Shown piece by piece: positions 1,092 to 21,445 of a DNA stretch of 32,849 nucleotides. Every line of letters starts with the position of its first letter. Within the stretch, counting starts at the first letter, position 1. Under the pieces are notes generated by a model. It made no database searches and was not told where the DNA came from. It saw nothing but the letters and a program-made list of their open reading frames with translations. The position numbers and the translations under genes are program-made. Source of the DNA: Fibrobacteraceae bacterium. Lineage in GTDB: Bacteria; Fibrobacterota; Fibrobacteria; Fibrobacterales; Fibrobacteraceae. The stretch spans positions 27,767 to 60,615 of the forward strand of contig JABUUT010000008.1 of assembly GCA_021443045.1 (NCBI GenBank). The letters run 5' to 3'.

Positions 1092-2495
1092 TTAAATACC
1101 CATATTCGATGGTTTTACATACAAGCCATTCATCAACTGGCTAAACATCATCTGCAATATATTGGGGAAGTAGCTGGTTAAAGAGGTTTCCATAGGCATG
1201 GTGTTAAACAAGGTGGTGCAGTTAGAGAGCCATGTGGGGTTGTTGCCCATACCCGTCAAGCACCAGGCACCTAGCCATTGCACAGACAACTTGGTGTTGG
1301 TCACATCAGCACCGTAAGCCGAAGCGTAGGAGAAATTGGTTGCAGGAATGTTGTTTACATTGCCACCAGACTTGCCCGAAATAAAGGTGTTGAGCGTGGT
1401 AAGAATTTGAGTAGCGCGAGGGTCCTGGAACCAGTACTGATCCCAAGCAATGCGCCATGGAATGCGAACCGATTCCTTGTTAAATGTCCAGTAGGTTTTG
1501 GTGGCACTGCCATTCTTTGGATCAATGGGGGCTCCAGTTACACTTGTCCAATCGGGAAACACGCCCACACCAGCCTGCTGGATAGCAGTCATGTAAGCAT
1601 ACTCGCCATCCAGAATATCCTTCCAATTATGAGTAGGATCGGTATCAACCAAGGCAAACAACCTTAAAGCCACAGGAGAGAAGTAGCTTAAGTTGTATGC
1701 AGAAGTGGCCTTTTTCCAAACAGGAGTGTCGCCCGAATAAAGAATTTTGGCTTCGGTATTTACTAAATGCTTCCAAATGGCATTCACAATAAGCTTGGCA
1801 TCGTTCAGGTAGGCCGCGTTGCTGGTCATGTAGTAAGCCAAAATAAGGGACGTGGCCACATCCAAATCGGCATCGGTTGCGGCAACGGCACTAGGAACGT
1901 TGGTAATGTCAAAGGTGCCCACAAGCCAAGGCATCAGCTCAGTGCCGTTAATGTAAGGCGACTGCCTAAAGGCCCTGTTATATGTCCAAATGCGGTTGAA
2001 GGTATCCCAGTCACCCTGGAACAGCGAAATAAGCATGCCGTAGCCAATGCCTTCAGACACAGTGCAACCCCGTTTGTACTTTGGCGTACCCTGGGCTTCT
2101 GGAATCCAGCAGTTTTCGTCGGTGGAGGTAGACCAAATTACACGGCCAGCATTGCCAAATGCGGCAAAATTGGCGGCAAAGCCACTACCCATAGACGGGT
2201 AGGCAACAGCTTCTTCTTCAAGGGTTACATAGTGGTATGGTTTCCAAATGCCATAGAGCGATGTGGGCATGGCAAGATTGGCAGCCCCACTGGGAGGATT
2301 CGTTACAGCAACACCACTTCCAGAAACAGAAGACTCAGGAACTGGAATAGGCGTAGAAGAATCCGATGAAGCAGTAAGTTCATTCCCAGGAATTGGATCT
2401 ACAGGCTGAACCGATGAAGACGAGCCACTGTCGCAAGCCGTCAGCAAACACAAGGAACCGCATACAAGCGATGTCAATATTCTTTTCGCATTCAT
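1092..2495 (-). CDS. GH8 family endoglucanase-type lipoprotein
   Basis: This is a 467-residue protein with a lipoprotein signal (LLTAC, Cys21), a Ser/Pro-rich linker to about residue 75, and a GH8 catalytic domain to the end. The GH8 signatures are SEGIGYGM (putative general acid Glu148) and DADLDVAT (Asp208/Asp210 region), plus a late RIPWRIAWDQYWF block. GH8 enzymes are inverting (alpha/alpha)6-barrel hydrolases acting on beta-1,4 glucans, xylans or chitosan; the exact substrate cannot be read here. The ATG at 2495 is chosen over the track start at 2525 because AAAGG lies just upstream and the lipoprotein signal begins there. Unlike the second GH8 gene (4921-7092), it has no sorting domain and is probably anchored by lipid to a membrane. 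Confidence 0.9.
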   Translation of the reverse strand: MNAKRILTSLVCGSLCLLTACDSGSSSSVQPVDPIPGNELTASSDSSTPIPVPESSVSGSGVAVTNPPSGAANLAMPTSLYGIWKPYHYVTLEEEAVAYPSMGSGFAANFAAFGNAGRVIWSTSTDENCWIPEAQGTPKYKRGCTVSEGIGYGMLISLFQGDWDTFNRIWTYNRAFRQSPYINGTELMPWLVGTFDITNVPSAVAATDADLDVATSLILAYYMTSNAAYLNDAKLIVNAIWKHLVNTEAKILYSGDTPVWKKATSAYNLSYFSPVALRLFALVDTDPTHNWKDILDGEYAYMTAIQQAGVGVFPDWTSVTGAPIDPKNGSATKTYWTFNKESVRIPWRIAWDQYWFQDPRATQILTTLNTFISGKSGGNVNNIPATNFSYASAYGADVTNTKLSVQWLGAWCLTGMGNNPTWLSNCTTLFNTMPMETSLTSYFPNILQMMFSQLMNGLYVKPSNMGI

Positions 2496-2686: not shown

Positions 2687-3589
2687 TTACTTCAAGAAAA
2701 TCTTCTGGCTAAAGTCTACAGACTGGTCGGAAACGCGAACCATGTACACGCCAGCGTCGAGGGCAGCCAAGTCGAGAGAAGCATCAGAGCTTACTGCAGC
2801 CTTCTTAACAATACGCCCCTGGAGGTTGATAACTTCTACGTTAGCAACAGTCTTGATGCCAGCAACATTGAGTGTGCGGCCAGCGAGAGTTGCCTTAACG
2901 GGATTTGCCCTAAGAGAAGAAATAGCCGCTGTACCGCATGCTCCAGCAGCACAGCCAACTTGTGCAGGGCCAATCTTCATAATATTGAAGTGGCCAGAAG
3001 TACCTGTGGCACCAGAGAACTTTATTCTTACAGCAGCAACCATAGTGAGGTAATCAGCTTGGTCCACCGGTACTCCCCATTCTGTTTCTTGCTTAAACTT
3101 GGACCAGTCAAGGGTCAAAGGATTAGCAGAAGTAGCAGCTGGAAGCTTGGCAGCGTAGTTGTTGTATCCGCTTGTGTTCAACTCGTCTTCTGGTACAATT
3201 TCAAGAGATGCGTCCACATCGGATATGTAAGTGATGCTGAGGCCACCCCAAGAAGTAACATCATTGCCCAGTTGCTCTTCACCAGAAACGTTAAAGCCAA
3301 CACCTGCAAAGGGTTTTTCGTAGCCTTCACCAAAAACAACATCACCACAAAGGCCACCACACAGGTCAATGATTGGGTCAAGAGCACCGTCATCATATTC
3401 GTTACCGGTGGAACAAGGCCACGCAACAGTAGTTGTCCCTCCTAGATAGTTGTCATCATAAGGATACCAGTAACCGTAAGTATCGGAACCATCGTCAAAT
3501 TCAGTTTCAATGCGGTAGTCTCTATTGGCACCAGACCATTGAATGAAACCAAAAGACAAGGAAGTTGCCACCGCAACAGCAATCGTCAA
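2687..3589 (-). CDS. Secreted beta-sandwich (carbohydrate-binding-like) protein with Por-type sorting domain; start disrupted
   Basis: This is a paralogue of the next gene (3753-4649). Its main domain is about 200 residues and opens with an aromatic/acidic stretch (DGSDTYGYWYPYDD), followed by a Cys-rich CGGLCGD loop, a DVTSWGG motif and a GHFNIMKIGP strand. This resembles CBM11/CIA30-like beta-sandwiches found in cellulolytic secreted proteins. The last 70 or so residues (AGRTLNVAG ... FSQKIFLK) look like a type IX secretion sorting domain. In this frame the ORF can only open at TTG 3589, which removes the charged start of the signal peptide. An ATG at 3601-3603, with AGGG upstream, is followed by nine A's and then an in-frame TGA; ten A's would restore MKKKILTIAV, matching the paralogue. 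The gene is therefore frameshifted, phase-variable or affected by a sequencing error. Substrate binding is inferred only from the domain type. Confidence 0.75.
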   Translation of the reverse strand: MTIAVAVATSLSFGFIQWSGANRDYRIETEFDDGSDTYGYWYPYDDNYLGGTTTVAWPCSTGNEYDDGALDPIIDLCGGLCGDVVFGEGYEKPFAGVGFNVSGEEQLGNDVTSWGGLSITYISDVDASLEIVPEDELNTSGYNNYAAKLPAATSANPLTLDWSKFKQETEWGVPVDQADYLTMVAAVRIKFSGATGTSGHFNIMKIGPAQVGCAAGACGTAAISSLRANPVKATLAGRTLNVAGIKTVANVEVINLQGRIVKKAAVSSDASLDLAALDAGVYMVRVSDQSVDFSQKIFLK

Positions 3590-3668
3590 AATTTTTTTTT
3601 CATAAATTCAACCCTTTATTAAACAAGTCCACCTCTATAAATTCTTTTTTAAAAGAGGCCTTGTTTAT

Positions 3669-3696
3669 AATATACTTTATTTTCGGACATTTTGAA
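3669..3696 (-). promoter_or_regulatory. Putative promoter of the first beta-sandwich paralogue
   Basis: On the minus strand TTCAAA and TATATT are 16 bases apart, giving a leader of about 58 bases to the ATG at 3603. Pattern only. Confidence 0.4.
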
Positions 3697-3704
3697 TAAC
3701 ATAA

Positions 3705-3732
3705 AAAAGAAGTTGCGTGTGCAACTTCTTTT
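3705..3732 (-). terminator. Rho-independent terminator after the second beta-sandwich paralogue
   Basis: A 12-bp perfect stem (AAAAGAAGTTGC / GCAACTTCTTTT) with loop GTGT sits just beyond the stop at 3753 in the minus direction. With the promoter at 3669-3696 it makes the two paralogues separate transcription units. Confidence 0.85.
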
Positions 3733-3752: not shown

Positions 3753-4649
3753 TTACTTCAAGAGGATCTTCTGGCTAAAGTCAACAGACTGGCCGGAAAC
3801 GCGAACCATGTACACGCCAGCGTCGAGGGCAGCCAAGTCGAGAGAAGCAGCAGAGCTTACAGCAGCCTTCTTAACAATCTGGCCCTGGAGGTTGATAACT
3901 TCTACGTTAGCAACAGTCTTGATGCCAGCAACATTGAGTGTGCGACCAGCGAGAGTAGCCTTAACGGAAGAAGCAGACTTAACACCCTTGATACCTGGTA
4001 CTGCAGAGCCAGGACCTATGGAAATGATGTTGAAGTGGCCAGCGGTACCAGCAGTACCAGCAAACTTTACCTTAACGGCAGCAACCATTGTGAGGTAGGT
4101 AGCTTGGTCAACCTTAACGCCCCAACCAGATTCCTGCTTGAACTTGGACCAGTCCAGTTGCAAAGAATTAGCAGAAGCAGATGCTGGGAGCTTGGCAGCA
4201 TAGTTGTTGTATTCAGTAGTTGTAGCTTCGTCTTGAGGAGCAACTTCGAGAGTAGCAGCAATTTCGGAAGTGTAAACGATGCTGATGCCACCCCAAGAAG
4301 TAACGTCGTTACCGAGCTGGTCAGCACCGGAAACGTTGAAGCCAACACCTACGAATGGGTATTCGTAACCGTCACCCAGGGAAACATCGCCACAGAGACC
4401 ACCACACTGGTCAATGATTGGGTCAAGAGCGTTGTCATCGTATTCGTTACCGGTAGCACAAGGCCATGTGAGGGTAGATGTACCACTGTTGTTGGCATCA
4501 TCATAAGGATACCAGTAACCGTATGTATCGGATCCATCGTCAAATTCAGTTTCAACACGGTAGTCGCCATTAGCGCCAGACCATGTAATGAAGCCGAAAG
4601 ACAAGGAAGCTGCTGCTGCAACAGCAAGTGTCAAAATTTTTTTATTCAT
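3753..4649 (-). CDS. Secreted beta-sandwich (carbohydrate-binding-like) protein with Por-type sorting domain
   Basis: The protein has 298 residues with an intact signal peptide (MNKKILTLAVAAAASLSFGF) beginning at ATG 4649. A beta-sandwich domain covers about residues 22-215 with the same landmarks as its neighbour (DTYGYWYPYDD, CGGLCGD, DVTSWGG, GHFNI). The C-terminal 70 residues form a sorting-type domain with the pattern of three short beta-strands ending VDFSQKILLK. The fold type is seen in non-catalytic carbohydrate-binding modules, and the protein carries no enzymatic domain, so a role in holding or scaffolding glycan at the cell surface is the likeliest reading. It has its own promoter and terminator. 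The DNA of the sorting domain is nearly identical to that of the neighbour, whereas the binding domain has diverged more. Confidence 0.8.
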   Translation of the reverse strand: MNKKILTLAVAAAASLSFGFITWSGANGDYRVETEFDDGSDTYGYWYPYDDANNSGTSTLTWPCATGNEYDDNALDPIIDQCGGLCGDVSLGDGYEYPFVGVGFNVSGADQLGNDVTSWGGISIVYTSEIAATLEVAPQDEATTTEYNNYAAKLPASASANSLQLDWSKFKQESGWGVKVDQATYLTMVAAVKVKFAGTAGTAGHFNIISIGPGSAVPGIKGVKSASSVKATLAGRTLNVAGIKTVANVEVINLQGQIVKKAAVSSAASLDLAALDAGVYMVRVSGQSVDFSQKILLK

Positions 4650-4676
4650 AATCTCTCTCTCTTGTTAATTGTGAGC

Positions 4677-4730
4677 GCCCTTTTTGGGCAGTTTGTGTGG
4701 CTAATATACCTTTTTTTAAAAAAAAGAGAA
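4677..4730 (-). promoter_or_regulatory. Putative promoter and leader hairpin of the second beta-sandwich gene
   Basis: On the minus strand TTCTCT (4725-4730) and TATATT (4703-4708) are 16 bases apart. The leader of about 47 bases contains a small hairpin GCCC-AAAAA-GGGC (4677-4689), then GAGAGAGAGA before the ATG at 4649 as a likely ribosome-binding region. The long T/A tracts upstream (about 4710-4755) could be an UP-like element. Confidence 0.45.
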
Positions 4731-4920: not shown

Positions 4921-7092
4921 ATGAATAAATTTTATACAACTATCGCCTCTATCGTTGCTATTACGGCTTCAACATGCTTTGCAGCCCCTGCATTCCCATT
5001 TCCACAAAACAAGGCCCACCCCTTTGGAAACACCTTTAAAAATGCCAAAACCAGCGTAATCAAAAGCCATTTTGATGCCTGGAAAAAAACATGGTACACC
5101 GAAGCAGGCTCGCAGGTAGACCTTTCCAACACCGACAGCCAGAATGCCAACAAGGGTATGCCGGGAGGCACAGCTCGCGTTATTAGCCCCAATGAAGACC
5201 GCAAAATGACCGTTTCCGAAGGCATTGCCTACGGCATGCTTATTATGGTGTACATGTCCGACAACACCAACGACTACTCCTCCCAATTTGAAAAGTTATG
5301 GAAATTTTGGAAGAGCTACATGGTTAGTGGCGGCAGCGTGTCGGGCATGCATTGGAAAATCAACAGTTTTGATGGTAAAACCGAAGGCCAAGGTTCGGCC
5401 AGCGACGCCGACTTTGATGCAGCCACCGCTTTGATTATGGCTTCTAAGCAATGGAACAACGCCACCTACCTGAACGATGCCAAAACGCTGATTAACTGGA
5501 TTAAGAGCAACGACATGGAAAGCGACGGCAGGGTGCGCCCCGGAAGCAACTGGAACGATGCCTTTAACCCAAGCTACTCCACCATTGCCGCATTCCAGCT
5601 TTTCTACAACGTAACTAACGACTCCTTTTGGCAAACAGCCATTAAAACAACCATGGACCACTTGCTCAAGTGCCAAGACGCCACCACCGGCCTTATGCCC
5701 GACTGGTGCGACTGGAGTTCTCATAAAGCCACCTCCACCAGTGCCGCCGTTTCTGGGGGTTACAAAGGCTTTTACGACGATGCCGCCCGTACGCCATGGC
5801 GCATGGCATGGGCCTATTACTGGTACGGCAACGAAGAAGCCAAGCAGTCCAACGACAAAATTATCACTTGGCTAGACAAGGAAACTTTTGGATACCCAGC
5901 CCTGATTCTCCCTGGCTACAACCTAGACGGTTCATCTCCTTCCGACATTTTTGTTTCTTCTACCTACGCTGGGGGCCTAGGGCTTTCCATGGCTTCGGCC
6001 ACAAACCCAGGGTGGTTCCTTGAAAACCTCTACTACACCTTGGCTAACACAGAGGGCAAAGATGCCATTAACGCCAAAAAAGGGGAAAACTACTTTGCTG
6101 CAACCTTAAATATTCTCTATATGCTTCTGTTTACAGGAAACATGCCCGACTTTAACAATATAGACAAATTCACTACATTCACACCAGACCCCGACGGAGT
6201 GCGAAAACCTAAGGCCCCCGAAGGCACTTTAATGCCCGAAAATTCTGGTGCAACGGTCTCTGGATTTGAACACTGGGGCTCCTATTGCGACAAGTTTGGC
6301 ATGGGCACCGTAATGTACCCCGACTCTGGAAGCACCGGTATTTATAAAATGGCAGATGGTTCCTACCAAATTCAAACAGAACTGTTTGTGGCCTCGGAAC
6401 CTACCTACGAACCCAACAAACAACTTAACTACCCATTTGCTGGCCTAGCCGTGTCTTTTGACAAAGACCACAAATACTACGACTTGTCCGACCTGCAAAC
6501 CGTACGCGTTACATACAAAAGCCAAGGGTTAATGCGCTTTGCCATTCTCGATGAAGAGACTTTAATCCAGAAGCAGGAAGGTGGCGAGCCAGGGGCTTAC
6601 CTGCACCCCACCGATGACTTTATTACCGTGGACATAGATATTTCGGGAGACGCCAGCGACGAGTTTAAAAGTTTAGATTACCCAAGCTGGGTGAACTACG
6701 AAAATTCGCGTTCGGCCACTCTTAAAGCGGTTCGCGGAGTTAAGTTTGATGCCAAGATGATTAAGGGCGGATACGCTTCATTTAACCTTAAGGAAGTTAT
6801 GCTGCTAGACGGAAACGGAACTATTATTTCCGCCTTAAAAGGAGTCAATGCGGTTCCTAAAAGTTTACCCACTTCAAGGCAAACATTTATGCACGAAGCA
6901 GGCCAAATTATGTATAGCGGATTTGGAAAAAATGCCAAAATTTATATTTTTGACTTAAACGGTACTCAAGTATACTCTAGACACGCTGGTAGCGCAGGCT
7001 CCCTGGACTTAAATAAGATTGCAGCCAAGGGTGCCTACATTGCCAGAATCGTGGATGGGGTGAACTCCAAACAAGTTCGTATACTTAAGTGA
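4921..7092 (+). CDS. GH8 endoglucanase-type enzyme with beta-sandwich module and sorting domain
   Basis: A 723-residue secreted enzyme. The signal peptide is residues 1-21 or so (TCFA/APAF). The GH8 catalytic domain spans about 30-440 with SEGIAYGM (putative acid Glu100), SDADFDAATAL (Asp162/164) and RTPWRMAWAYYWYG. A Pro-rich linker (PDPDGVRKPKAPEG) leads to a beta-sandwich module (about 465-650) with GFEHWGSY, LNYPFAGLAVSF, DLSDLQTVRVTYKS and GYASFNLKEVML, the same order of landmarks as in the stand-alone proteins at 2687 and 3753. The last 70 residues are a Por-type sorting domain. The ATG at 4921 is chosen because the signal peptide begins there; the track start at 4846 lies upstream of the probable promoter. 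There is no clear Shine-Dalgarno. Cellulose or mixed-linkage glucan are the likely substrates, by family. Confidence 0.9.
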   Translation: MNKFYTTIASIVAITASTCFAAPAFPFPQNKAHPFGNTFKNAKTSVIKSHFDAWKKTWYTEAGSQVDLSNTDSQNANKGMPGGTARVISPNEDRKMTVSEGIAYGMLIMVYMSDNTNDYSSQFEKLWKFWKSYMVSGGSVSGMHWKINSFDGKTEGQGSASDADFDAATALIMASKQWNNATYLNDAKTLINWIKSNDMESDGRVRPGSNWNDAFNPSYSTIAAFQLFYNVTNDSFWQTAIKTTMDHLLKCQDATTGLMPDWCDWSSHKATSTSAAVSGGYKGFYDDAARTPWRMAWAYYWYGNEEAKQSNDKIITWLDKETFGYPALILPGYNLDGSSPSDIFVSSTYAGGLGLSMASATNPGWFLENLYYTLANTEGKDAINAKKGENYFAATLNILYMLLFTGNMPDFNNIDKFTTFTPDPDGVRKPKAPEGTLMPENSGATVSGFEHWGSYCDKFGMGTVMYPDSGSTGIYKMADGSYQIQTELFVASEPTYEPNKQLNYPFAGLAVSFDKDHKYYDLSDLQTVRVTYKSQGLMRFAILDEETLIQKQEGGEPGAYLHPTDDFITVDIDISGDASDEFKSLDYPSWVNYENSRSATLKAVRGVKFDAKMIKGGYASFNLKEVMLLDGNGTIISALKGVNAVPKSLPTSRQTFMHEAGQIMYSGFGKNAKIYIFDLNGTQVYSRHAGSAGSLDLNKIAAKGAYIARIVDGVNSKQVRILK

Positions 7093-7165: not shown

Positions 7166-9346
7166 ATGAATATAGCTAAAGCACTTCTATTATCTTCCCT
7201 GCTTGCATTTGGCGTGACCAGCGCCCTTGCAGATGCAGCGTCGGCAAAACCGCTCCGCGTGGGTCCAGTTCAGATCCATGGTGCCTTAGGCACTTCTGGT
7301 GGAAAAATCATTGGCCAAAAAAGCAACCGGCAGGTAATGCTTCGTGGTATGAGCCTTTTTTGGTCTGATGCCACCGGCATTCAATACTATAACCCCAATG
7401 TAATTGCATGGGCCGCCAATAGCCTTGGTATTGACGTATTCCGCTTTGCCATGGGTATTGAATATTACGATAGCAATGGAGGAACTTCCAATAAGCTAGA
7501 CGCCAACTACTCCTACAAGGGTAACCCATCCATGTACATGAACAAGTTGGACCAAATGGTTGAAGCCGCCATTGAAAACGACATCTACATTATCGTGGAC
7601 TGGCACAGCCACCGTGCAGAAAACGAAAAGTCTTTGGCTCAAGACTTTTTTAAGACCGTAGCCCAAAAGTACGCCAAAGTTCCTAATGTTATTTTTGAAG
7701 TGTACAACGAACCGGTGAACACAGGGTGGTCTACCATTGTGGACTATGCCAACAGCGTTATTTCGGGCATTCGGGCCCACTCCCAAAATTTGGCCTTGGT
7801 GGGCACCCCCAACTGGTCTCAGCTCACTAACGTAGGCGGAGTTTCGGGCACTAACGTTGGATATGTTTTCCACTTTTATGCTGCCACCCACTCCCTAGGT
7901 TCCTTCCAGAGCCGAATTACCAGTGCCATTAACGGTGGAAACGCCGTGTTCATTACAGAATGGGGTACCACCAATGCAGACGGTGATGGCGAACCCTCCG
8001 CCAACAACACCAGCCAGTGGACTTCGTTTATGGACCAGAACAACATTTCAAACTGCAACTGGAGTTTGCGCAACCAAACCAGTTCCATTGATGGTGCTTC
8101 TGAAAAATCGGCCCTGCTGGCTGGAAGCAACACCTTGACAACCCAAAGTGATTTGGAATCGGCTTCATATACTACCTCGGGCAACATTGTAAAAAGCTAC
8201 CTTACCGGCAAAAAGAGAAACTGGGCGGACTCCCTGATTGCAGGAAAAACCTCCGGTTCTTGCCATTTTGCAACACAGTCCGTAAAAGAAACTGCAGGTA
8301 CGGTTACTCTTAAGTCTGGATGCACCTACACTTCTAGCGATGAATCTGTTGTTACAGGAAGCGGTGCAGTAAAAAGTGCTGGCTTTGCCATTCTTACCGG
8401 CAACGACAACTCCCAGTCCATTGTACTTGTTACCAAGGAACCAAAGCAGACCATAGCTAAATTTGCCTCCACAATTTGCCGTTACAGTGGTTCTTGTGGC
8501 AACGGCTGGATGCTCTACGATTTAACCAATTCCGGCAAGCTGGAAACCTTGATTTCAGCTTCTGGTGAAACAGCCGAAGGAAGTAAGGTTACATTCAAGT
8601 CTTTAAACACAGACATTGTAGATTACAAAAAAGCCGTTTGCAACAATTCCTCCAAGTGCTACGGCGACACAAAGGGTGCCAGCGTACACATGCTGGAATT
8701 CAAAACCTTTGGGGACGCTAAAATTGTGGCAACAGCCCCAGCAACCACAGGTTTCCAAGCCATGAACGATACCATTGTGGTGACCTACGGAAAGGGATTA
8801 AACAAGTTCCACTCCAAGGTTAAATTTGGGGATGCCGTAATTCCTCTGGGTGGCTCTAGCGTAGACAACTTCTTCTGCGACACTCTGCTCTACGAACACG
8901 CTAAAGTAAGCTACACCTTTGATGGAGAAGCCACTTCTATCTATGCTTCCCGCAGCGGTAATATTTTGAAGGCCGCCAACAAGAACGCCATTGTAATGGT
9001 CACTGCAAGTTCTCCTGAAACATCCAAGTACGAAGCCTTTAACAAAACCGTTCGCATTGTAATTGGTGATAGCACCAAGGCCGAAAACGTGGCTATTCCA
9101 GTATCCAAGCCTTTGATTCCGTTCCGCGCCGAGGTACAGAACCAGGGACTAATGCTTCAAGTAGATAAGGCTGGCCTTGTAAGCTGGAGCATCCGAGGAA
9201 TCAATGGTGTTACCTACATGGAAAACAGTCAGGTTTACCAAAGCGGTTCACACTGGATTTCTTTGGATAAGATTCCTGCAGGGTTCTACATTATGAACGT
9301 AAAGCAGGGTTCCAAATCTTACAACTTCAAGTGGAATAAACAGTAG
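7166..9346 (+). CDS. GH5 endoglucanase with Ig-like modules and sorting domain
   Basis: A 726-residue protein with a signal peptide (about residues 1-22). The GH5 (subfamily 2-like) barrel covers about 35-350: LRGMSLFWSD at the start, FEVYNEP with putative acid/base Glu182, VFHFYAATH, and VFITEWGT with putative nucleophile Glu265. Residues 350-640 look like three degenerate Big2-type Ig-like modules; the TYTSSDESVVTGSGAVKS unit is typical, and two contain Cys pairs. A Por-type sorting domain closes the protein (LDKIPAGFYIMNVKQG). The gene follows the GH8 gene by 73 bases with no terminator between, so co-transcription is plausible, and a terminator follows. It should cleave internal beta-1,4-glucan bonds at the cell surface or outside. 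The architecture matches Fibrobacter-type Cel5 enzymes, but I do not assign a specific gene name. Confidence 0.9.
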   Translation: MNIAKALLLSSLLAFGVTSALADAASAKPLRVGPVQIHGALGTSGGKIIGQKSNRQVMLRGMSLFWSDATGIQYYNPNVIAWAANSLGIDVFRFAMGIEYYDSNGGTSNKLDANYSYKGNPSMYMNKLDQMVEAAIENDIYIIVDWHSHRAENEKSLAQDFFKTVAQKYAKVPNVIFEVYNEPVNTGWSTIVDYANSVISGIRAHSQNLALVGTPNWSQLTNVGGVSGTNVGYVFHFYAATHSLGSFQSRITSAINGGNAVFITEWGTTNADGDGEPSANNTSQWTSFMDQNNISNCNWSLRNQTSSIDGASEKSALLAGSNTLTTQSDLESASYTTSGNIVKSYLTGKKRNWADSLIAGKTSGSCHFATQSVKETAGTVTLKSGCTYTSSDESVVTGSGAVKSAGFAILTGNDNSQSIVLVTKEPKQTIAKFASTICRYSGSCGNGWMLYDLTNSGKLETLISASGETAEGSKVTFKSLNTDIVDYKKAVCNNSSKCYGDTKGASVHMLEFKTFGDAKIVATAPATTGFQAMNDTIVVTYGKGLNKFHSKVKFGDAVIPLGGSSVDNFFCDTLLYEHAKVSYTFDGEATSIYASRSGNILKAANKNAIVMVTASSPETSKYEAFNKTVRIVIGDSTKAENVAIPVSKPLIPFRAEVQNQGLMLQVDKAGLVSWSIRGINGVTYMENSQVYQSGSHWISLDKIPAGFYIMNVKQGSKSYNFKWNKQ

Positions 9347-9374
9347 CAACTGAGAATTGGCTTGGGCTACTCTC

Positions 9375-9402
9375 ACGACCGGCATTTGTCGGTCGTTTTT
9401 TA
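9375..9402 (+). terminator. Rho-independent terminator after the GH5 gene
   Basis: A stem ACGACCGGC / GTCGGTCGT with loop ATTT (one G-U pair) is followed by TTTTT on the plus strand. It closes the GH8-GH5 unit. Confidence 0.85.
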
Positions 9403-9435
9403 GGTAGGGTGGTTTGTGGTCTGTCACCAAAAAGC

Positions 9436-11142
9436 TTATTCATGCTCCCGAGCCCATAACAAACGATTAAATTCAATGCTACTAGGAACTTCTCTAATTA
9501 GTTTATTCAGAGAATCAGCGCCATACATTTCTAGCAATGTTTTTTCATTACTAAAGAGGTTTACACCAAAACCTAAACGATTTCCCTCTATTTCATAGCC
9601 AAGGGCACTTAAAATGGTTGGATACATATCCATATCCGAAAAATAATGTGTTGAATTTACTGGAACTTTCACGGAATTCAAAAAGATATTTATCCATTTT
9701 CGGTTTGATTTATTTTGGACTAAATGTTTTCCCATAAAATTATGGTCACCAACAATTACAATCGTAGTATTTTCATAAAAATCTTTTTTCTTTAAATAAT
9801 CTATAAAATCAGCCGTTAACGCTGATGTACATTGCACTATAGATTTATATGTTTCCGATTCGTTGGCACCCCAAAAATTATTTTCACAGCGTTCATCATA
9901 CATTCCATCTGGTGTATGCGTATCGATGGTAAATAAAGTCAATGAAAAAGGTTCTTTAATTGTATCTAAAACCGATTTTGTAAAGGAAAAAGTATGTCGA
10001 TCACTAACAGACCGAAAAGCTCTATTTTCTACAATCCTGCGGTCTATTGAATATTCAGTAATAATATTTTCATAATCATAGATTTCATCAATGCCCCTAT
10101 TTTGCAAGAATTGATCAGTGCCAGCAAAACCTATTGATGTGCCAAGAACAATATATTGTCTATAATTTTGTTCATGCAAAAAATCGTATAGACTTTTAAA
10201 ACCCTTATACCCGTTTCTGTACGAATTTCCACTAAAGATTGGAATACCTGCTGTTTTTGCTACATACGCACCAAAAGTAAAACCAGTTCCAAACACATCA
10301 TCACCACCACCAATGGGAGTTCTTTTCTCCCCAAAAGATAAATTTTGTTTTGCCAATAAATTTAGCTCTGGAGTTAAATCAGAAAACGTTGTTTCCATCG
10401 ATTCTAAAAAAATGAGGACTAAATTTCTCCTTGATGTTGGAGGCGTGACTATCACCTTATTCGGGTGAATATATTCTTCTTCAAACAAAATAGAATTTTT
10501 TAATTTATGTTGAGTGTTATAATTTTTATATGTAATTATATACTCACCCACAGGAAGTTTATAAAACAAAAAACATATAGAACATACAAAGTAACAAATT
10601 AAGCCACAATAGCGATAACAATTCTTTCTTAACCCAAGAATTAAAAACAAATAAAACAGCAGTGTAATTTTAAGGGAATCAACAGGAATAAAATCAATAT
10701 ATTTTTTTACATAATAATCAACAAAACCGTCTATTGGCATTTGTAATGTAAATAAAACGGTATTAACATCAGTCAATGGAAATGTTGAAACTACCCATAC
10801 AAGACTTTTTTGAGTTAAAACACAAAGATAAGCAATGAAAAAAAACGCTATACCAGATTTTATATTTACCTTTTGATACGGAAGTTTTCTAAAAAAATAC
10901 ACCAAGGAGGTCGCAACAAAAGCACAACATAAAATCAAATTCCATTCAGGCAAATATCCTGTATTCATAAAAGATGTAGAAATTAAATAGGCAAGGCATT
11001 CTTCTAACACCAATATGTATAAGAGCAAAAGAATTATCCGCCAGCGTTTAGGCATTTTCTCAATACAGATAAATTTAACTTGTTCAGAATCAAATCCAAC
11101 TTTTTTCATCATACAGTAGATTTTTGATTTTATATGATTCAT
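9436..11142 (-). CDS. OpgB/LtaS-type membrane phosphoglycerol transferase-like protein
   Basis: 568 residues. Five predicted membrane helices lie in the first 195 residues (around 33-52, 68-84, 95-118, 156-171, 176-194), followed by a periplasmic alkaline-phosphatase-superfamily domain. Motifs match the phosphoglycerol transferase family: LIFLESMETTF (metal-binding Glu247), GTGFTFGAYVA (candidate nucleophile Thr289), TIDTHTPDG and VIVGDHNFM (Asp466/His467). The TIDTHTPDG block and the Cys after it are especially like E. coli OpgB (MdoB), which moves phosphoglycerol from phosphatidylglycerol to periplasmic glucans; LTA synthases or phosphoethanolamine transferases are alternatives. The ATG at 11142 follows GAGAG; internal Met codons are possible. 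The gene is much richer in A/T than its neighbours and lies between repeat DNA and a foreign terminator, which suggests horizontal acquisition. The acceptor molecule is unknown. Confidence 0.75.
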   Translation of the reverse strand: MNHIKSKIYCMMKKVGFDSEQVKFICIEKMPKRWRIILLLLYILVLEECLAYLISTSFMNTGYLPEWNLILCCAFVATSLVYFFRKLPYQKVNIKSGIAFFFIAYLCVLTQKSLVWVVSTFPLTDVNTVLFTLQMPIDGFVDYYVKKYIDFIPVDSLKITLLFYLFLILGLRKNCYRYCGLICYFVCSICFLFYKLPVGEYIITYKNYNTQHKLKNSILFEEEYIHPNKVIVTPPTSRRNLVLIFLESMETTFSDLTPELNLLAKQNLSFGEKRTPIGGGDDVFGTGFTFGAYVAKTAGIPIFSGNSYRNGYKGFKSLYDFLHEQNYRQYIVLGTSIGFAGTDQFLQNRGIDEIYDYENIITEYSIDRRIVENRAFRSVSDRHTFSFTKSVLDTIKEPFSLTLFTIDTHTPDGMYDERCENNFWGANESETYKSIVQCTSALTADFIDYLKKKDFYENTTIVIVGDHNFMGKHLVQNKSNRKWINIFLNSVKVPVNSTHYFSDMDMYPTILSALGYEIEGNRLGFGVNLFSNEKTLLEMYGADSLNKLIREVPSSIEFNRLLWAREHE

Positions 11143-11302
11143 TTTTTTACTCTCTTAAATGCTGATTTTAGACAAACCAGAGTAGGGCATTTTTGGATAT
11201 GAAACAGCAAAAGCAAACGATGTTGCAATAAAACCAACAAGATTGTTTGATATTCTTATATTTTGTGATGGTACTAAAAAATTGGAACTATTTAGGGATA
11301 AC

Positions 11303-11333
11303 AAAAAAGCCCCTAAAGAAAAGTCTTTAAGGG
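11303..11333 (-). terminator. Minus-direction terminator hairpin in the gene-poor islet
   Basis: TAAAGA/TCTTTA plus CCC/GGG pairs form a hairpin with one mismatch, followed in the minus direction by TTTTTT (AAAAAA at 11303-11308). No convincing gene lies upstream of it, so it may be the relic of a lost gene or the end of a small RNA or read-through transcript. Confidence 0.5.
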
Positions 11334-11574
11334 TAAATTTCGTAATTACCAAAGAATCGTTTATTACGGATAGCTCAAATGAGCAGCCCCCCCGCAAGAT
11401 TCGTGCCAAACGCATAGAAGCCAATGCTGCCGTGGTAAAGGAGGTTAGATAACTAAAATGTAATTGCATATTACTAATATAGATTTTACAAAAAACAAAT
11501 GTCAAATAGCATTCTTCAGGCAAGCATATTCGCATGGACATTCTCTGGTTCCTATCACTTCACTGCGTTTCGTT

Positions 11575-11795
11575 CCAGGATGACGCGGGCTACTGATAAC
11601 CGATAAATGAACACATTTCCTGGATCCTTCAGGGCTACGCCCTTCAGGATGACACCGATTACTGATAACAGACTACTTCCTTTGACCCTAGCTGTCCTTC
11701 GGACAGTTCCGCTTGCAGCTCGGTCATGGACAAGCAAGCTTATCCGCGACTCTCGCCTTGGGGCGTAATCGGTCGCGAAGCTCCTCCAGGATGAC
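11575..11795. repeat. Mosaic of short dispersed repeats (CAGGATGAC and ACTGATAAC units)
   Basis: CCAGGATGAC occurs at 11575-11584 and 11786-11795, and TCAGGATGAC at 11644-11653. The first two in order are each followed, after a short gap, by TACTGATAAC (11591-11600 and 11660-11669). An imperfect palindrome CCTTCAGGGC-TAC-GCCCTTCAGG lies around 11627-11648. GCGAAGCTCC (11775-11784) also occurs at 19-28. GTTATCAGT, the complement of ACTGATAAC, is the core of the 14-base tandem array at 32776. These look like decayed copies of one or more interspersed repeat families. Confidence 0.7.
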
Positions 11796-11814
11796 TCAAT
11801 TCATAATCCACCCC

Positions 11815-11838
11815 TGTGAAAGTCGTTAGACTTTCACA
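11815..11838. other. Perfect 10-bp inverted repeat
   Basis: TGTGAAAGTC-GTTA-GACTTTCACA is a perfect stem with a four-base loop and no following T-run, so it is not a standard terminator. A second perfect palindrome, AAAAATGC-TT-GCATTTTT, follows at 11863-11880. They could be protein-binding sites, repeat ends or parts of a structured RNA. Confidence 0.6.
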
Positions 11839-11930
11839 ACAAATGCGTAGGGCGAATAAAACAAAAATGCTTGCATTTTTACTTTTGAGCCCAGCATTTG
11901 GTACATAGTACAATTCGTGTGATAACAAAA

Positions 11931-11959
11931 AAACACCTTCGCGAGGAAGGTGCTTTTTT
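11931..11959 (-). terminator. Terminator of the six-gene surface operon
   Basis: A 7-bp perfect stem CACCTTC-GCGAG-GAAGGTG is bordered by A-run and T-run, so it works in the minus direction after the GH18-like gene (stop at 11979). Confidence 0.85.
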
Positions 11960-11978
11960 TGTGTGAAAGCCGTTAGAA

Positions 11979-13166
11979 TTACTTTTTCTTCTTTGGCTTG
12001 TAGCTAATTTCTGGACGAAGTTCCAGACCAATGGTCACCAACAGGGAAACGATTGGTTCGTGGTGGTCCTGAGAAATGTCGTACACCGCCACACCGCCAA
12101 AGTCTCCTGATTTAATGTTCTGGGCAACAGACTTTACAGAAGGAATACCCATAAACACGATGGATTCCATGGCACTGACAGCCACTTCAGACTTGGAATC
12201 TTCATCGAAAGACACCTTATAGTCTGGAGTGTCAAAGAGGCTCATCAATTCCTTGTATGGAATGTAACCTTCGTTACCGCTACCGATACCATTGTGGGAA
12301 GATCCCAAGCCGGTGGCACCGGCAAAGGTACGGCCATAGAGGTTAATCACAGGAATCAACTTGGAAGCCTCCACTCCCTTGCCAGTAAGTTTTTCCAGCC
12401 CTTCAGAAATCAGGGTGGCACTTTGGCTTGGTTTAAGTGTAGTTTCTTCTTCGGACATTTGGTCTGGAATAAACACCGTGGCATAATCCAAATCGTTAAT
12501 GACATCGGAAGAATAAGCCTCTAGAGAGCTAAATGGATAAACCGTTGCAGACAAAGTGTACTTGCCAGCAAAAGCAGACTTTAACGCACTGAGCAAAGTA
12601 CCAAAACCATTGCCACCGGCTGCTGCAGGAGCGGCAACTGGTTCAGAGGCAGGCTCTTCGCTTGAAGCCCCTTCTTCAGTAGCACCTTCTTCGAAGTTTG
12701 GTTCTTCTGCAGTGGGAGCTTCTTCAGCAACAGGAGCCGCAGATTCGGCACTTAGATTCTGCCAGTCAATTTCAACGCCAGAACCACCATGCTCATCTAA
12801 CCAAGCAACCACATTGTTTGCAAAGGTCTGTGTCAATTCGGAGTTGGCGGAAATTTCTTGGAACACGCTTTCCATTTCAATGCCACCAATGGTAACCACC
12901 ACCTTAACATTGTGGTTGGCAGCAGAATCCACCAAAGCCTTAAAGTTACCTGCATCATTTTCATCGGCCCAAGCAACGGAGCCATCGGAAGATGGGGTTA
13001 GGGAAACATAGTTGACATGCGTTACAAAATCGTAGCGAATATCCTTAGGATAGAATTGGGAATATTGGCTCCAGTAGGGGTAAAAGCCAACAACCTTATC
13101 AGCGGCTGCCTGAGCACTAATGGCAAAGGAAGCAGCAACAGCAAGAGTAAGAACTTTAATATTCAT
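11979..13166 (-). CDS. GH18-like protein lacking the catalytic glutamate (pseudo-chitinase)
   Basis: 395 residues from ATG 13166, which has a strong GAGGTGG ribosome-binding site; the track start at 13211 overlaps the upstream gene. A signal peptide (about 1-21) precedes a GH18-like barrel: VVGFYPYWSQY, VTHVNYVSLTP, and VKVVVTIGG, the usual third-strand motif. At the fourth strand, where active GH18 enzymes have DGxDxDxE, this protein has SGVEIDWQ, so the catalytic acid is Gln136 and other acidic positions are changed. An acidic Ala/Pro/Glu-rich insert of about 45 residues follows immediately, at the expected mouth of the active site. The C-terminus is basic (YKPKKKK). It is most likely a non-catalytic glycan-binding or structural protein. 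It is the last gene of the operon, 13 bases after the lipoprotein gene. Confidence 0.75.
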   Translation of the reverse strand: MNIKVLTLAVAASFAISAQAAADKVVGFYPYWSQYSQFYPKDIRYDFVTHVNYVSLTPSSDGSVAWADENDAGNFKALVDSAANHNVKVVVTIGGIEMESVFQEISANSELTQTFANNVVAWLDEHGGSGVEIDWQNLSAESAAPVAEEAPTAEEPNFEEGATEEGASSEEPASEPVAAPAAAGGNGFGTLLSALKSAFAGKYTLSATVYPFSSLEAYSSDVINDLDYATVFIPDQMSEEETTLKPSQSATLISEGLEKLTGKGVEASKLIPVINLYGRTFAGATGLGSSHNGIGSGNEGYIPYKELMSLFDTPDYKVSFDEDSKSEVAVSAMESIVFMGIPSVKSVAQNIKSGDFGGVAVYDISQDHHEPIVSLLVTIGLELRPEISYKPKKKK

Positions 13167-14075: not shown

Positions 14076-16232
14076 TTAGAAATTAACCGTTACGTCGGCA
14101 AGAATTGCAGACTTGTCAATGGAAAGTTCATCAGCAGTTACGGACAAGGCTCCATCGGCAGAAAGCCCGTAGGCATCAAAGGAAACCTTGTCTGTTAGCA
14201 AGGCGTACTGAACAGAAATGTAAGAATTTGGAGCGATTCTGAATCGTGGTCCTGCAAGAACAACGGATTCTTCAGCCTTCTTGAGCCCTGCAAAACCAAG
14301 GTTCAAAGGATTGCCGTATTCCTTGGTTACTTGCTGGTAGCCACCCCAAATACCTATTGGACCCCAAATATCTACGGTTAGACCAGCCATAATACGGTCG
14401 CTGGAACGCTTGTACCATTCCGATTCCTCGCCATGAGCATAGGAACCCTGGAGCTTAATTTTGGATAGGTAGGAACCGGCATCTAGGCCAACCAAGCGAG
14501 CCACATCAATACCCAAACCACCGCCAAATTCGGTAAACTCGTTGTCGATGGCGTCTTGGCTGAATTTGGAGAACTGACCACTAACTTCTACAGCTTCTGC
14601 CCAAGAAAGGTTGAGAGAAGCGGAGAAACCCTTGCGGTCAGGGGTAGCCAAACCGTATGGCAAAGCCAGGTTCAACGACGGATCCATCAAAGCGAGGGCT
14701 TCACCCTGTTCCAACAGTTTCTTTGTATCGGCGGCGTAGCCGTTACGGAAGAAATGCATGTTCTTAAAGTTGTTGTACACACGGGAGTTGGTCCAAGCAT
14801 TTTCGCTGTAGTCGTTCTCGCTAGAAAGAACGTTGGCATACCCAGCAGTGAGAATGTTCGTTCTATTCAACGGGTTAGAATTGTAAACAGAGAAGTATAG
14901 GTTTTCAAGGCTGGAAGCCCCCAAGGCCGAAACTAGAGAACCGTAGGTTTCGTTGGCATAAACCGCATTGGCATTCATAATTACAGCATTACCTTCAAAA
15001 GCAGGAGCAGAAGCCAATTCAGACCAGAACTCCTTATCGTTCATTAAGTACATGCCATTTACATCTACATGCAACTGTGAAAAGTCACCCTTAACGTATG
15101 GTTCTACATAGAAGCTGGAGCCACTGAAATCATCAAATTTTTCTTTGACGGTTTCTGTACCATTGGTGGTGGTGGTCTTTACATAGAATACAGCCTGTTT
15201 TGCACCATTGGCATCTGGAACCGTATCCAGTTTTAACATATAGTTGGTTCCGGTAGTCTTGGAGATGTACCTCTTTTGAGCTTCCCACCAAGCCATGGCG
15301 TATTCAGCATTAAAGCCGAAAGACACAGGGAGGCTAGAAAGCATCTTTTTAGAGTCCCAGCCCAATTGTCCAGAAAATACGCTGTTGTCTTCAAGGTAGA
15401 TGGTATCGCTAGTACCATTGTCATGTATGACAATGTCATGAGCATCGGTAGAGAGCTTGCGATCGAATACATCTATGTAGTTGGCACCCAAATGAGCCCC
15501 AAACAGATCGGCATCAACGCGGCCACCAAACTGGTAGCGGTCAGACCAATCAAAGTCGAAGAAGGTCTGGTCGTTCTTTTTGGAGATGTTGCGGAGACGG
15601 GCTCCGGTAACCTGTGCATGGATGTTGTCCACAGGGCCCACCTCAAAGCTGTTGAAGTTCACATTGACACCCTGGAGCAAGCGTCGAGAGGTTGTATCCA
15701 GATTTCGCCAAGACATGGCTTCAACACGATTGGCGGCAAACACTTCCGGTTCCTGAATCAAGTTGGGTTGCGGAGTCCAGAGGGTTAGTGGAGTCCAACC
15801 CACACGCATGTAACCCAAGTTGAAATCAACATGCTTGTTGAGGATTAAGCCATCGTAACTAAACCAGTGGCCAAGAACTGGATTGTTTGTTTCTTCGTAG
15901 GCACTCTGCCAGTCTTTGTGGAGGCGCATTTCCAAGTGGATTTCGGTTTCGGAGCTTGGATGAGCGGTGAGAACCAGGTTAGCGTCAGTGTATGCCTGAT
16001 TTTCTTGAGTGCCCGAGGTTTTACTGAACTGGTCGGAGGAAGCCATGGAGTTGAGGCCACCGGCCTTAACACGACCATTAAACTTAATGCCAAGCACGGC
16101 GGCATTAAGGGAATCCAACTTTTCCAACAAAGTTTTCTGTTCCTTGACTATTGTTTCCTGGTCATCAGCAAAAGCTGTTGCCACAGAAAACAGGAGAGCG
16201 GAAGCAAAGCAAATTTTCTTATTTAAATTCAT
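14076..16232 (-). CDS. Outer-membrane beta-barrel protein, third barrel of the operon
   Basis: 718 residues. A signal peptide (cleavage near AFA/DDQE) is followed by a short heptad-like helix (IVKEQKTLLEKLDSLNAAV) and then a long run of alternating amphipathic strands ending in DVTVNF. The terminal Phe fits the BAM recognition signal of outer-membrane barrels. The motif WTPLTLWTPQPNLIQEPEVFA is shared in position and pattern with the next barrel in the operon (YTPLTLFAPSVDIMYEPTIFA), showing common descent. GGGAGGGA precedes ATG 16232. No TonB box or plug domain is visible, so a porin-like or adhesin-like role is more likely than TonB-dependent transport. The specific substrate is unknown. 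Confidence 0.8.
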   Translation of the reverse strand: MNLNKKICFASALLFSVATAFADDQETIVKEQKTLLEKLDSLNAAVLGIKFNGRVKAGGLNSMASSDQFSKTSGTQENQAYTDANLVLTAHPSSETEIHLEMRLHKDWQSAYEETNNPVLGHWFSYDGLILNKHVDFNLGYMRVGWTPLTLWTPQPNLIQEPEVFAANRVEAMSWRNLDTTSRRLLQGVNVNFNSFEVGPVDNIHAQVTGARLRNISKKNDQTFFDFDWSDRYQFGGRVDADLFGAHLGANYIDVFDRKLSTDAHDIVIHDNGTSDTIYLEDNSVFSGQLGWDSKKMLSSLPVSFGFNAEYAMAWWEAQKRYISKTTGTNYMLKLDTVPDANGAKQAVFYVKTTTTNGTETVKEKFDDFSGSSFYVEPYVKGDFSQLHVDVNGMYLMNDKEFWSELASAPAFEGNAVIMNANAVYANETYGSLVSALGASSLENLYFSVYNSNPLNRTNILTAGYANVLSSENDYSENAWTNSRVYNNFKNMHFFRNGYAADTKKLLEQGEALALMDPSLNLALPYGLATPDRKGFSASLNLSWAEAVEVSGQFSKFSQDAIDNEFTEFGGGLGIDVARLVGLDAGSYLSKIKLQGSYAHGEESEWYKRSSDRIMAGLTVDIWGPIGIWGGYQQVTKEYGNPLNLGFAGLKKAEESVVLAGPRFRIAPNSYISVQYALLTDKVSFDAYGLSADGALSVTADELSIDKSAILADVTVNF

Positions 16233-16247
16233 TGTTATTCCCTCCCA

Positions 16248-18428
16248 TTAAAATTCCACGTTAATGGAAGCTTCTATAATCGAACGACTGAACTCATGGG
16301 TGTACTTGGTATCTGTTTTTACCCCATCGGCATTAACTGATGGTGAATAGTACAGGGGCAAGTTTGCAACAACGGGTTCAAAGGCACCGGTGGTAGCACT
16401 TCTCTTGGCGTTATCCGATGTAACCGAGGAAACATCGTATTCATTTTTAACAGAGGCTATGCCGTAATTGATGGAGAACCAAGCGTTTTCTTCAAGAGAG
16501 TAGTCTAAGCCAACCATCCACTGCATTTCGGTACCCTTTGTTTTAGGAGCACTAAGAGCACCCAAAGCCGAAGCGATTGCAGCACCCATGGATGCTTCCT
16601 GAGGGTTGTACTCCGTGGTAATGTACTGGAAGCCTGCTGTTACACCCAAGCGAGGAAGATACTGGGCGGAGAAACCTGCGTTAATAAAGTTGCTCTTCAG
16701 TTCAGCAGAACCGGAAGTACCCATAACAGCGGCATCCAAATCCATGGTGCGTTCGGAATGCTTGTAAGAGCCCATCAATTCCAGATTACGCTTAAAGCCA
16801 AACATGTTGGAAGCACTCCACTTGAGACCGCCTCCATATTCCATGTAGGAAACATCGCTAAAGCCTTCCAAAGGAGATGGCTGGCTTAACATGGTGAATA
16901 GGCCCTGGGCTTCAACATAGTTGCTGAGACCTGCTGTAAGAAGGGCACGGGCACCAAGACGGTTGGATGTGGCAAGGCCGTTAGGCAAGGCCAGCTGAAT
17001 GGCTGGGTCAGACAAGGCGGCCACCAAGGCCATTTGGGCCTTGGAGTACACATTGGTGGTCCAGGAATTCTTGCTGAAAGGCGCCAAATCGTAGCTCTTG
17101 GAATCACCTCTCTGGATGTCAGCATCCTTGGTACCCAAGGTAAAGGAAGCTGGAGAATACTTAGGAGTAAAGTTGTAGAGTGCGTCAAAGGTGCTGTACA
17201 ATGGGGAGTTTACAGTGTACTTAATGGTGTAGCCGTCTTTATCCGTATTCAGAATGCGCTGGGCAAAGAACTGGGGAGATTGAGCCACATTGTTGAACCA
17301 GTTGGTGTCGTTCATCAAGAAATCCACTTCCACTACAGCCATGTACTTGTCGTCGGCCTTGTAGCCAGCATTTAAAACGGCCAAGAGAGCAGAACCATTT
17401 ACAGCTTCACCGTCTTGATCGTCCCTAGAAAAGGCATATTCGCCAACCACATCCATAATGATGCTCTTGCTTCCTAGGAAACCCGCAAAATCAACACCTG
17501 CACGGCCACTTATAACTATGGTACTCTGGGCAGTGGTGTCGTATGGGTTAATATTCTGCATCTCGTAATCTTCATCAAGGTTGTAATCTGGATGACGATA
17601 AGTGTATGTGCGGGAATCTTCGTTATCCAAAATCACCATTGGGGTTACACCCACATACAAATTCTTGGAAATGGGGAACAATTCCAGGTTCGCAGAGAGC
17701 AGCCACTTGGCGGTGTTGGAAGCCTGTGTAGAACCAGGAAGGGAATCGTCTGGCAGAATGTTGCCTTCGGCACCAGTGAGGTCCAAAACAGAGGTACGGG
17801 CCAACCGGGCAATCAAGGCTTCGGCACGGAACTCACCTGCCGCAGCACCAAAGTCATTGCGGAACTGAAGGTTTATACCCTGCAAGTTGCGCTGGTTGCC
17901 TTCAAGCAGCTGCTGTTTTTCGGCCATGTGACGCTTGCGGGCGAAAATGGTGGGTTCGTACATAATGTCTACAGAAGGAGCAAACAAGGTGAGTGGGGTG
18001 TACTGCTGACGGAAATCACCCACAACCCAGTAGAATTTGTTGCCAATGTTTCCTTCAACATTAAGCCAGCCTACCGAAAGCATCTTGGAAGCAGAGGAGA
18101 AGTATTCCTGCATGCCGCCTTCCAAGCGAAGCATAATGTTTGCACGAACTTGTTCCCAGGGCCGGAAATGGAAATCAATGTCGGCACTTACAAAGGAATT
18201 GTCTTCCACGTCCGGCATACGATTCACAGCCTTTTTGTCTTGGTCGGTGTCAAAAGAGGACTTTTGAACAACGGCACGGATGCTTCCGCCAATCTGGACG
18301 CCTCTCATTGCATTGATGGAATCGACCCTGCTATCAAGAAGTTCTTGATTTTCCAAAGCCGTTGCTGCAGATGCGGAAACCGCTGCGGCGAAGAGAGCGA
18401 TAAAAGTCTTTTTCATTTTCATATTCAT
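16248..18428 (-). CDS. Outer-membrane beta-barrel protein, second barrel of the operon
   Basis: 726 residues from the ATG at 18428, which sits six bases after GAGGGG; the track start at 18452 overlaps the upstream gene. Signal peptide, short helical segment (ENQELLDSRVDSINAMR), then barrel-type alternating strands ending EASINVEF with terminal Phe. The landmark YTPLTLFAPSVDIMYEPTIFARKR matches the corresponding region of the following barrel, and a parallel late block (NGLATSNRLGARA here, YGLATPDRKGFSA there) supports paralogy. The spacing is 15 bases to the downstream gene and 14 bases to the upstream one. Confidence 0.8.
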   Translation of the reverse strand: MNMKMKKTFIALFAAAVSASAATALENQELLDSRVDSINAMRGVQIGGSIRAVVQKSSFDTDQDKKAVNRMPDVEDNSFVSADIDFHFRPWEQVRANIMLRLEGGMQEYFSSASKMLSVGWLNVEGNIGNKFYWVVGDFRQQYTPLTLFAPSVDIMYEPTIFARKRHMAEKQQLLEGNQRNLQGINLQFRNDFGAAAGEFRAEALIARLARTSVLDLTGAEGNILPDDSLPGSTQASNTAKWLLSANLELFPISKNLYVGVTPMVILDNEDSRTYTYRHPDYNLDEDYEMQNINPYDTTAQSTIVISGRAGVDFAGFLGSKSIIMDVVGEYAFSRDDQDGEAVNGSALLAVLNAGYKADDKYMAVVEVDFLMNDTNWFNNVAQSPQFFAQRILNTDKDGYTIKYTVNSPLYSTFDALYNFTPKYSPASFTLGTKDADIQRGDSKSYDLAPFSKNSWTTNVYSKAQMALVAALSDPAIQLALPNGLATSNRLGARALLTAGLSNYVEAQGLFTMLSQPSPLEGFSDVSYMEYGGGLKWSASNMFGFKRNLELMGSYKHSERTMDLDAAVMGTSGSAELKSNFINAGFSAQYLPRLGVTAGFQYITTEYNPQEASMGAAIASALGALSAPKTKGTEMQWMVGLDYSLEENAWFSINYGIASVKNEYDVSSVTSDNAKRSATTGAFEPVVANLPLYYSPSVNADGVKTDTKYTHEFSRSIIEASINVEF

Positions 18429-18442
18429 TTTTAGCCCCTCCC

Positions 18443-20698: not shown

Positions 20699-21445
20699 TT
20701 AGATCTCGTTGCGGAATGGATAGTAAGCAGGGCCTTCATAAGGCTTGCCATGCTTCTTAATAACAATATCGTCGATCCAAACCTTGAAGGATTCGTTTTC
20801 ATCCTTGCGGACTTCCAAACGGAAGCCCTTGAAGTTGGACCAGGCAAAGGGGAGCATCACTTCGCGGGTATTCTTCACATCCCAGTACACACCTGTGTTA
20901 CCGAAGAGCTTCAGAGGAACGCTAAAGTGTTTCCATTCGGTGGTAATTTCGCCAAGGCTCTTGGAACGAAGCTTTACCTGAAGGGATTCGCCTCCGCTTT
21001 TTACACCATCGTCCACCAGAACGAACAAAGCGTTTTCGCCACCCTTGGCACCCTTAATCCAGAATTCCAAAACGCCTTCCTCCAGGTAGGGAGTAAGGTC
21101 TACAGAACCTGCAATACAAATAGCCACACCAGAGTAGTCGCTGGCAATCAATTCAATTTCCATAGCCAGAGCACCTTCCATGGCACCTGCTTTTTCGGTG
21201 AGGAATGGTTCCGGATTTTCACGAGGATACTGGTAGGTGTATCCACCACCACGGGGGATAGCTTCGCGCATAACCACAGACACAACTTCCTTGTCTGGAC
21301 GGAACGGCTTGGCTTCTTTCTGTACAAATCGATACTGGTCACGGTCGCGATAATCGCTAAACCCATAGCCAGCAAAAGAAAGCGGGGCACAAAGGAGCGT
21401 GGCTAGTGCGCACGTCCAAATGGCTTTTTTGTATTTTGCATTCAT
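20699..21445 (-). CDS. Secreted small beta-sandwich protein, first gene of the surface operon
   Basis: 248 residues. Signal peptide cleaved near SFA/GYGF, a charged linker, then a galactose-binding-like beta-sandwich (about 80-240). It has EGVLEFWIKGAKGGENALFV, WKHFSVPL, FAWSNFKGFRLEV and the closing FKVWIDDIVIKK strand that is typical of CBM11/CIA30-type domains. There is no catalytic domain and no sorting domain. As the promoter-proximal gene it may be the periplasmic or surface glycan-binding partner of the three barrels. GGAG lies about 13 bases before the ATG, rather far for a strong ribosome-binding site. Confidence 0.75.
   Translation of the reverse strand: MNAKYKKAIWTCALATLLCAPLSFAGYGFSDYRDRDQYRFVQKEAKPFRPDKEVVSVVMREAIPRGGGYTYQYPRENPEPFLTEKAGAMEGALAMEIELIASDYSGVAICIAGSVDLTPYLEEGVLEFWIKGAKGGENALFVLVDDGVKSGGESLQVKLRSKSLGEITTEWKHFSVPLKLFGNTGVYWDVKNTREVMLPFAWSNFKGFRLEVRKDENESFKVWIDDIVIKKHGKPYEGPAYYPFRNEI

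Follow-up and report, generated by a model that had tools for sequence, protein, structure and literature searches.

Frameshifted Genes and Slippery A-Runs

The closest described counterparts of the locus presented here are the "pseudo pseudogenes" with runs of nine A's (Baranov et al. 2005, PMC1088944), where the frameshift lengthens a run of eight A's to a slippery nine, thereby partly correcting itself, in an organism that avoids A9 runs in its coding sequences. A transition from enrichment to depletion with increasing run length is the kind of pattern that marks slippage-prone lengths (PMC1088944), and the same work describes the A9 site of Thermus thermophilus dnaX, where transcriptional slippage on nine A's gives mRNAs of mixed length. 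In E. coli, insertions in RNA become exponentially more frequent as runs lengthen, up to 9 nt (PMC5574713). Meanwhile, Buchnera and Blochmannia possess genes with a poly-A frameshift that can be conserved between lineages, slippage being shown for some of them (PMC3017870 and works cited there). Homopolymers near the start of surface-protein genes are also known from slipped-strand phase variation, where a change of one unit restores the frame.

The locus compared with these systems lies in a window of 32,849 nucleotides (the whole stretch of DNA analysed), positions 27767-60615 of its contig (C162), in a draft genome of a Fibrobacteraceae bacterium (3.44 Mb, 173 contigs, 82% complete). Two neighbouring genes on the minus strand, here gene 1 and gene 2, encode related surface proteins, and gene 2 is interrupted directly after its start codon. 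As in the "pseudo pseudogenes", the frameshift itself would have brought the A-run to nine, transcriptional slippage would restore the frame and coding A9 runs are avoided in the organism; in contrast to them, the gene 2 run can result from the deletion of a non-A base, with A2 and A7 becoming fused, and sits at codons 2-4, within the signal peptide. Like the Buchnera and Blochmannia genes, gene 2 has a single poly-A frameshift, is otherwise intact and is under normal constraint, but it concerns one species and a redundant duplicate, with putative slippage. The dnaX site has a function, as an intact gene yields two products through it, whereas slippage in gene 2 would rescue a broken start. 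Like the slipped-strand genes, gene 2 encodes a surface protein and has a homopolymer close to its start, where a change of one unit brings the frame back; however, its run is short and not conserved, and no further such tract is found in the genome.

The Lesion at the Start of Gene 2

The start codon ATG of gene 2 (3601-3603, minus strand) is preceded, 8 nt upstream, by the Shine-Dalgarno-like AAAGGG (3612-3617), overlapping TTTAATAAAGG (3613-3623). Read on the minus strand, ATG (3603-3601) is followed by nine A's (3600-3592), TTT and the stop TGA (3588-3586), giving the frame-0 translation MKKKF*; on the plus strand, positions 3591-3603 are a-TTTTTTTTT-cat. The sequence-only reading had reported nine A's followed by TTTTGA after ATG 3603, with ten A's giving MKKKILTIAV, and direct reading confirms it: one added A yields MKKKILTIAV, a change of one unit toggling the frame. 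The body frame (2687-3589, minus strand) is stop-free over 300 aa, comprising the rest of the signal peptide, the CBM11-like domain and the type IX sorting domain, and its 300 codons contain no further stop or frameshift. Upstream it is closed by a stop just before the ATG region, and its first table-11 start is TTG 3589, with no Shine-Dalgarno in front. Gene 2 has a single frameshift, at a slippage-prone run, and one-base slippage restores the whole frame. Insertion of one A by RNA polymerase and a -1 ribosomal slip on A-AAA-AAA would lead to the same MKKKILTIAV product.

An A9 run is not unusual in itself, as the window holds three against 4.2 +/- 3.2 expected. When the 30 ATG-A8+ sites of the whole draft genome were inspected individually, gene 2 was the sole case with a long out-of-phase frame directly behind the run; it is the position of the run, rather than its presence, that is unusual. 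Reading these 30 sites also ruled out a genome-wide family of A-tract switches.

Gene Family, Fold and Genomic Neighbourhood

Gene 1 (3753-4649, minus strand) is the intact paralogue, encoding 298 aa that are 76% identical to gene 2 and starting with ATGAATAAAAAAATTTTG. Both genes carry the type IX C-terminal sorting domain TIGR04183/PF18962 above curated cut-offs, and for F. succinogenes such domains have been proposed to act in the type IX system (PMC6851124). In the AlphaFold2 model of gene 1 (mean pLDDT 77), the N-terminal part matches CBM11 modules, the top Foldseek matches being 6r31 and 1v0a (prob 1.00, target TM 0.56-0.57), and the remainder matches type IX C-terminal domains, namely those of NucA and RgpB. 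No CBM sequence model of Pfam matches the family, with only a weak CIA30 match in 2 of 18 members; consequently, the CBM11 likeness is one of fold and not of family membership, and the gene 1/gene 2 protein is predicted to adopt a CBM11-like beta-sandwich.

In an alignment-query search, the named relatives with this gene family are Fibrobacter or Fibrobacteraceae, including F. intestinalis ATCC 43854, and the gene family and gene order of the window group with Fibrobacter. The relatives examined have a single copy between the GH8a gene and divergent GH8b and/or GH5 genes; in the window, these correspond to the conserved downstream GH8a glycoside hydrolase (1092-2495, minus strand), the divergent GH8b glycoside hydrolase with a type IX sorting domain (4921-7092, plus strand) and the conserved GH5 cellulase (7166-9346, plus strand). 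As no gene 2 orthologue is found in 79 other species of the genus (E <= 1e-70) and the relatives have one copy, sequence comparison identifies gene 2 as a lineage-specific tandem duplicate of the CBM11-like, presumably type IX-sorted surface protein.

Over roughly their final 55 codons (3756-3930 in gene 1 and 2690-2860 in gene 2, minus strand), the two genes hardly differ at synonymous sites, with a dS of 0.10 against 0.8-1.0 mid-gene, which suggests that the sorting domain has undergone gene conversion. The gene 2 protein differs from that of gene 1 in residues 50-200, for example. Three relatives (L102, L103 and L104, around 7260-10177) have two consecutive GH8a-like genes, a further tandem duplication within this cluster. 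Elsewhere in the window, a small protein whose CBM30 domain scores above the Pfam cut-off (20699-21445, minus strand) adjoins a run of three large frames (14076-20689); about 840 bases without a clear gene (11142-11979) hold short dispersed direct repeats such as CAGGATGACnCnGnnTACTGATAACnGA, and the window edge (2-56) has three copies of TTCTTTCGTCTAT.

Origin of the A9 Run

The starts of the two paralogues align with one gap, ATGAATAAAAAAATTTTGAC in gene 1 against ATGAA-AAAAAAATTTTGAC in gene 2. When all single-base deletions of the gene 1 start were tried by script, only one, removing base 6 (the T in AAT), yielded the gene 2 start exactly; this loss fuses A2 and A7 into A9, the tract being equivalent to codon 2 AA(T) minus its T, joined to the A7 of gene 1. 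The closest orthologues start with ATGAACAAGAAAATT or near it, the orthologues mostly begin, like gene 1, with MNKK (AAT/AAC) and not with ten A's, and a long A-run at the start is absent from every orthologue and close paralogue compared. Given the starts of the closest orthologues and the one-gap alignment, the ancestral start of gene 2 was probably MNKK, and the A9 run can be a by-product of the T loss.

An alternative path is possible, in which a T-to-A change gave A10 and slippage then gave A9. The two paths cannot be told apart, as the step count favours the T loss while mutation rates may favour the slip. Ten A's would restore the frame, as supposed by the sequence-only reading, but A10 has rivals as the intact precursor and is not the most parsimonious among them, because the gene 1 start minus one T is already the gene 2 start. 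A conserved programmed frameshift was discarded, the site being absent in the orthologues.

Leaders, Promoters and Expression Level

The family leader, as seen in the orthologues and gene 1, combines TATATTA, located near -57, with a small GC stem-loop and, before the ATG, AACAAAGAGAGAGAA; in gene 1, this conserved layout of TATATTA, GC stem-loop and AACAAGAGAGAGAGATT occupies 4650-4708 (minus strand). The stem-loop arms change together between the gene 1 leader and those of the relatives (L098-L123), as GCCC/GGGC, GTCC/GGAC, GCTCA/TGAGC and ACCCA/TGGGT. The exact pattern AAGAGAGAGAN{1,5}ATG occurs in this genome only before gene 1.

Gene 2 has its own leader, separate from that of gene 1, and an inverted repeat with a T-run after gene 1 (3700-3730, minus strand) is a probable terminator. 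TATATTA is kept (3668-3674, minus strand), being the probable -10 element common to the family promoters, and the rest of the family leader is absent. In place of the small family stem-loop, another is predicted (3620-3667, minus strand; z -2.63, 3 of 200 shuffles equally stable). The TTTAATAAAGG sequence of this leader is an 11-mer found identically in the GH8a leader (2504-2514); a derivation from GH8a at the duplication junction was considered and is unproved, the intergenic regions aligning clearly at the 3' flank and poorly elsewhere. Among 17 genes measured, codon bias is strongest in gene 1 (ENC 36.0), whereas gene 2 is ordinary (ENC 45.3). The ordinary bias and the missing family leader suggest that gene 2 is probably the weaker-expressed copy.

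Selection on Gene 2

The branch codon model, applied to seven sequences with the C-terminal part excluded as apparently homogenised, treats genes 1 and 2 as sisters and lets all branches except that of gene 2 share one omega. Omega is 0.165 on the gene 2 branch against 0.144 in the background, with a 95% likelihood-profile interval of about 0.10-0.28; an omega of 1 is worse by 17.8 lnL and is rejected, and no more than about 0.12 of the branch, at its end, can have been neutral. With L098 as outgroup, gene 2 shows 33 unique amino-acid changes against 8 in gene 1 (p=0.0001); synonymous change is likewise larger in gene 2, and omega is not raised. The frame is kept under normal purifying selection, and this continued constraint implies a lesion that arose recently, is artefactual or is tolerated; the test is compatible with both rescue and a very recent lesion. 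An old pseudogene is rejected, as the body has no additional stop or frameshift and omega=1 does not fit.

A-Runs in Fibrobacter Genes and the Search for Parallels

A-runs were counted in 456 Fibrobacter genes (583 kb, from the window and the related loci L098-L157) and compared with 100 shuffles of synonymous codons. Runs of A5+ and A6+ are in excess (1.26 and 1.25 of expectation), A8+ runs are depleted (0.52), and A9+ runs number 2 against 8.9 expected (0.23), with no shuffle as low; the change from the enriched A5-A6 to the depleted lengths is sharp and lies at 8-9. Slippage at the DNA level, and not only at the RNA level, could underlie the avoidance of A9.

Among the ATG-A9 sites with a Shine-Dalgarno-like motif in 62 genomes of the genus, no comparable out-of-frame start is found, and a few sites are in-frame signal peptides or lipoproteins. 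Three genomes (L078, L087 and L090) have ATG-A9-TCG-stop with an open frame behind it, but their true start lies upstream, producing MPKQKFYAV..., an RNase H-like protein by eye, and they are not parallels.

Explanations of the Broken Frame

The explanation that we favour, tentatively and at somewhat less than even confidence, is that gene 2, a redundant and weaker paralogue, has suffered a recent frameshift that leaks, making it a "pseudo-pseudogene" rescued by slippage. Tandem duplication of the gene for a secreted CBM11-like, type IX-sorted surface protein produced gene 2, which would then have lost the strong family leader and codon bias, becoming a weaker yet still selected paralogue. The recent loss of one base in codon 2 would have shifted the frame and simultaneously made the A9 run, on which RNA polymerase, by adding an A, or the ribosome, by moving -1 on A-AAA-AAA, would restore MKKKILTIAV... 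in a minority of products. Expression of gene 2 would be lowered and leaky, not abolished. The analysis demonstrates the break itself, how it relates to gene 1, the duplication, the purifying selection and the A9 avoidance in Fibrobacter genes, while slippage on this tract, its level and the export of the product are what we infer.

A plain recent null, in which gene 2 is off in this lineage and becoming a pseudogene, gene 1 covers its function and slippage is irrelevant, is unlikely but the most serious of the competitors. The intact paralogue adjoins gene 2, amino-acid evolution is about four times faster in gene 2 than in gene 1, and the constraint data permit a lesion within the last ~12% of the branch. 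However, the extra synonymous change matches the higher rate without a raised omega, the 300 codons are otherwise unbroken, and nine A's is a slippery length in published work.

It is also rather unlikely that the break is an assembly or consensus error and the true genome is in frame at the start of gene 2. The incomplete and fragmented draft would allow it, homopolymers being classic error sites, as would a frame that is otherwise perfect and under selection. Against this, the window's remaining main genes have open frames, among them dsbD with an internal A9 (30068-30076), an N gap in the assembly (L037) suggests scaffolding from short reads, which seldom carry homopolymer indels, and the gene 2 locus has one assembled copy, no second assembled variant being found.

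The sequence-only reading had proposed an on/off switch, with an error as the alternative, and its premises stand: the frame is really broken in the assembly, within the signal peptide of a surface protein, and slippage restores it. An evolved switch is nevertheless unsupported, as the loss of a non-A base can explain the lesion and gene 2 itself has no orthologue in the other species of the genus. Reversible phase variation, where replication slippage would flip A9 (off) and A10 (on) and so switch the export of the binding protein, is improbable. One unit restores both frame and signal peptide of a surface-sorted protein, long A-runs are mutable, and high slippage rates could make the two steps from T to A and from A10 to A9 equal in likelihood to the direct T loss; but the tract is confined to one gene of one species, Fibrobacter genes avoid long A-runs with no enrichment of them, and a limited literature search recognised no Fibrobacter precedent for phase variation. 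Because the tract is not conserved, and no other A-tract-broken start occurs in the genome and none comparable in the 62, evolved phase variation is unlikely. We give very little credence to an A9/A10 tract that works as a selected switch, through DNA or RNA slippage, keeping a second polysaccharide-binding protein at low or heterogeneous expression. Translation from TTG 3589, or from a rare ATT just upstream, which would leave gene 2 unbroken, is highly doubtful, for although TTG lies in the body frame a few codons past the upstream in-frame stop, only the A-run precedes it, the AAAGGG lies 8 nt ahead of ATG 3603, and the protein would be missing the lysine-rich n-region that every orthologue read retains.

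Implications for the Gene Family

As matters stand, the locus presents one recent lesion in a redundant duplicate. Were the tract a true switch, a cellulolytic gut genus would be seen to have a fibre-binding protein subject to phase variation. Should slippage indeed rescue gene 2, automated annotation would lose or shorten a working surface protein in error, and the locus would show that the loss of a single base can partly remedy itself through the slippery run that it creates.
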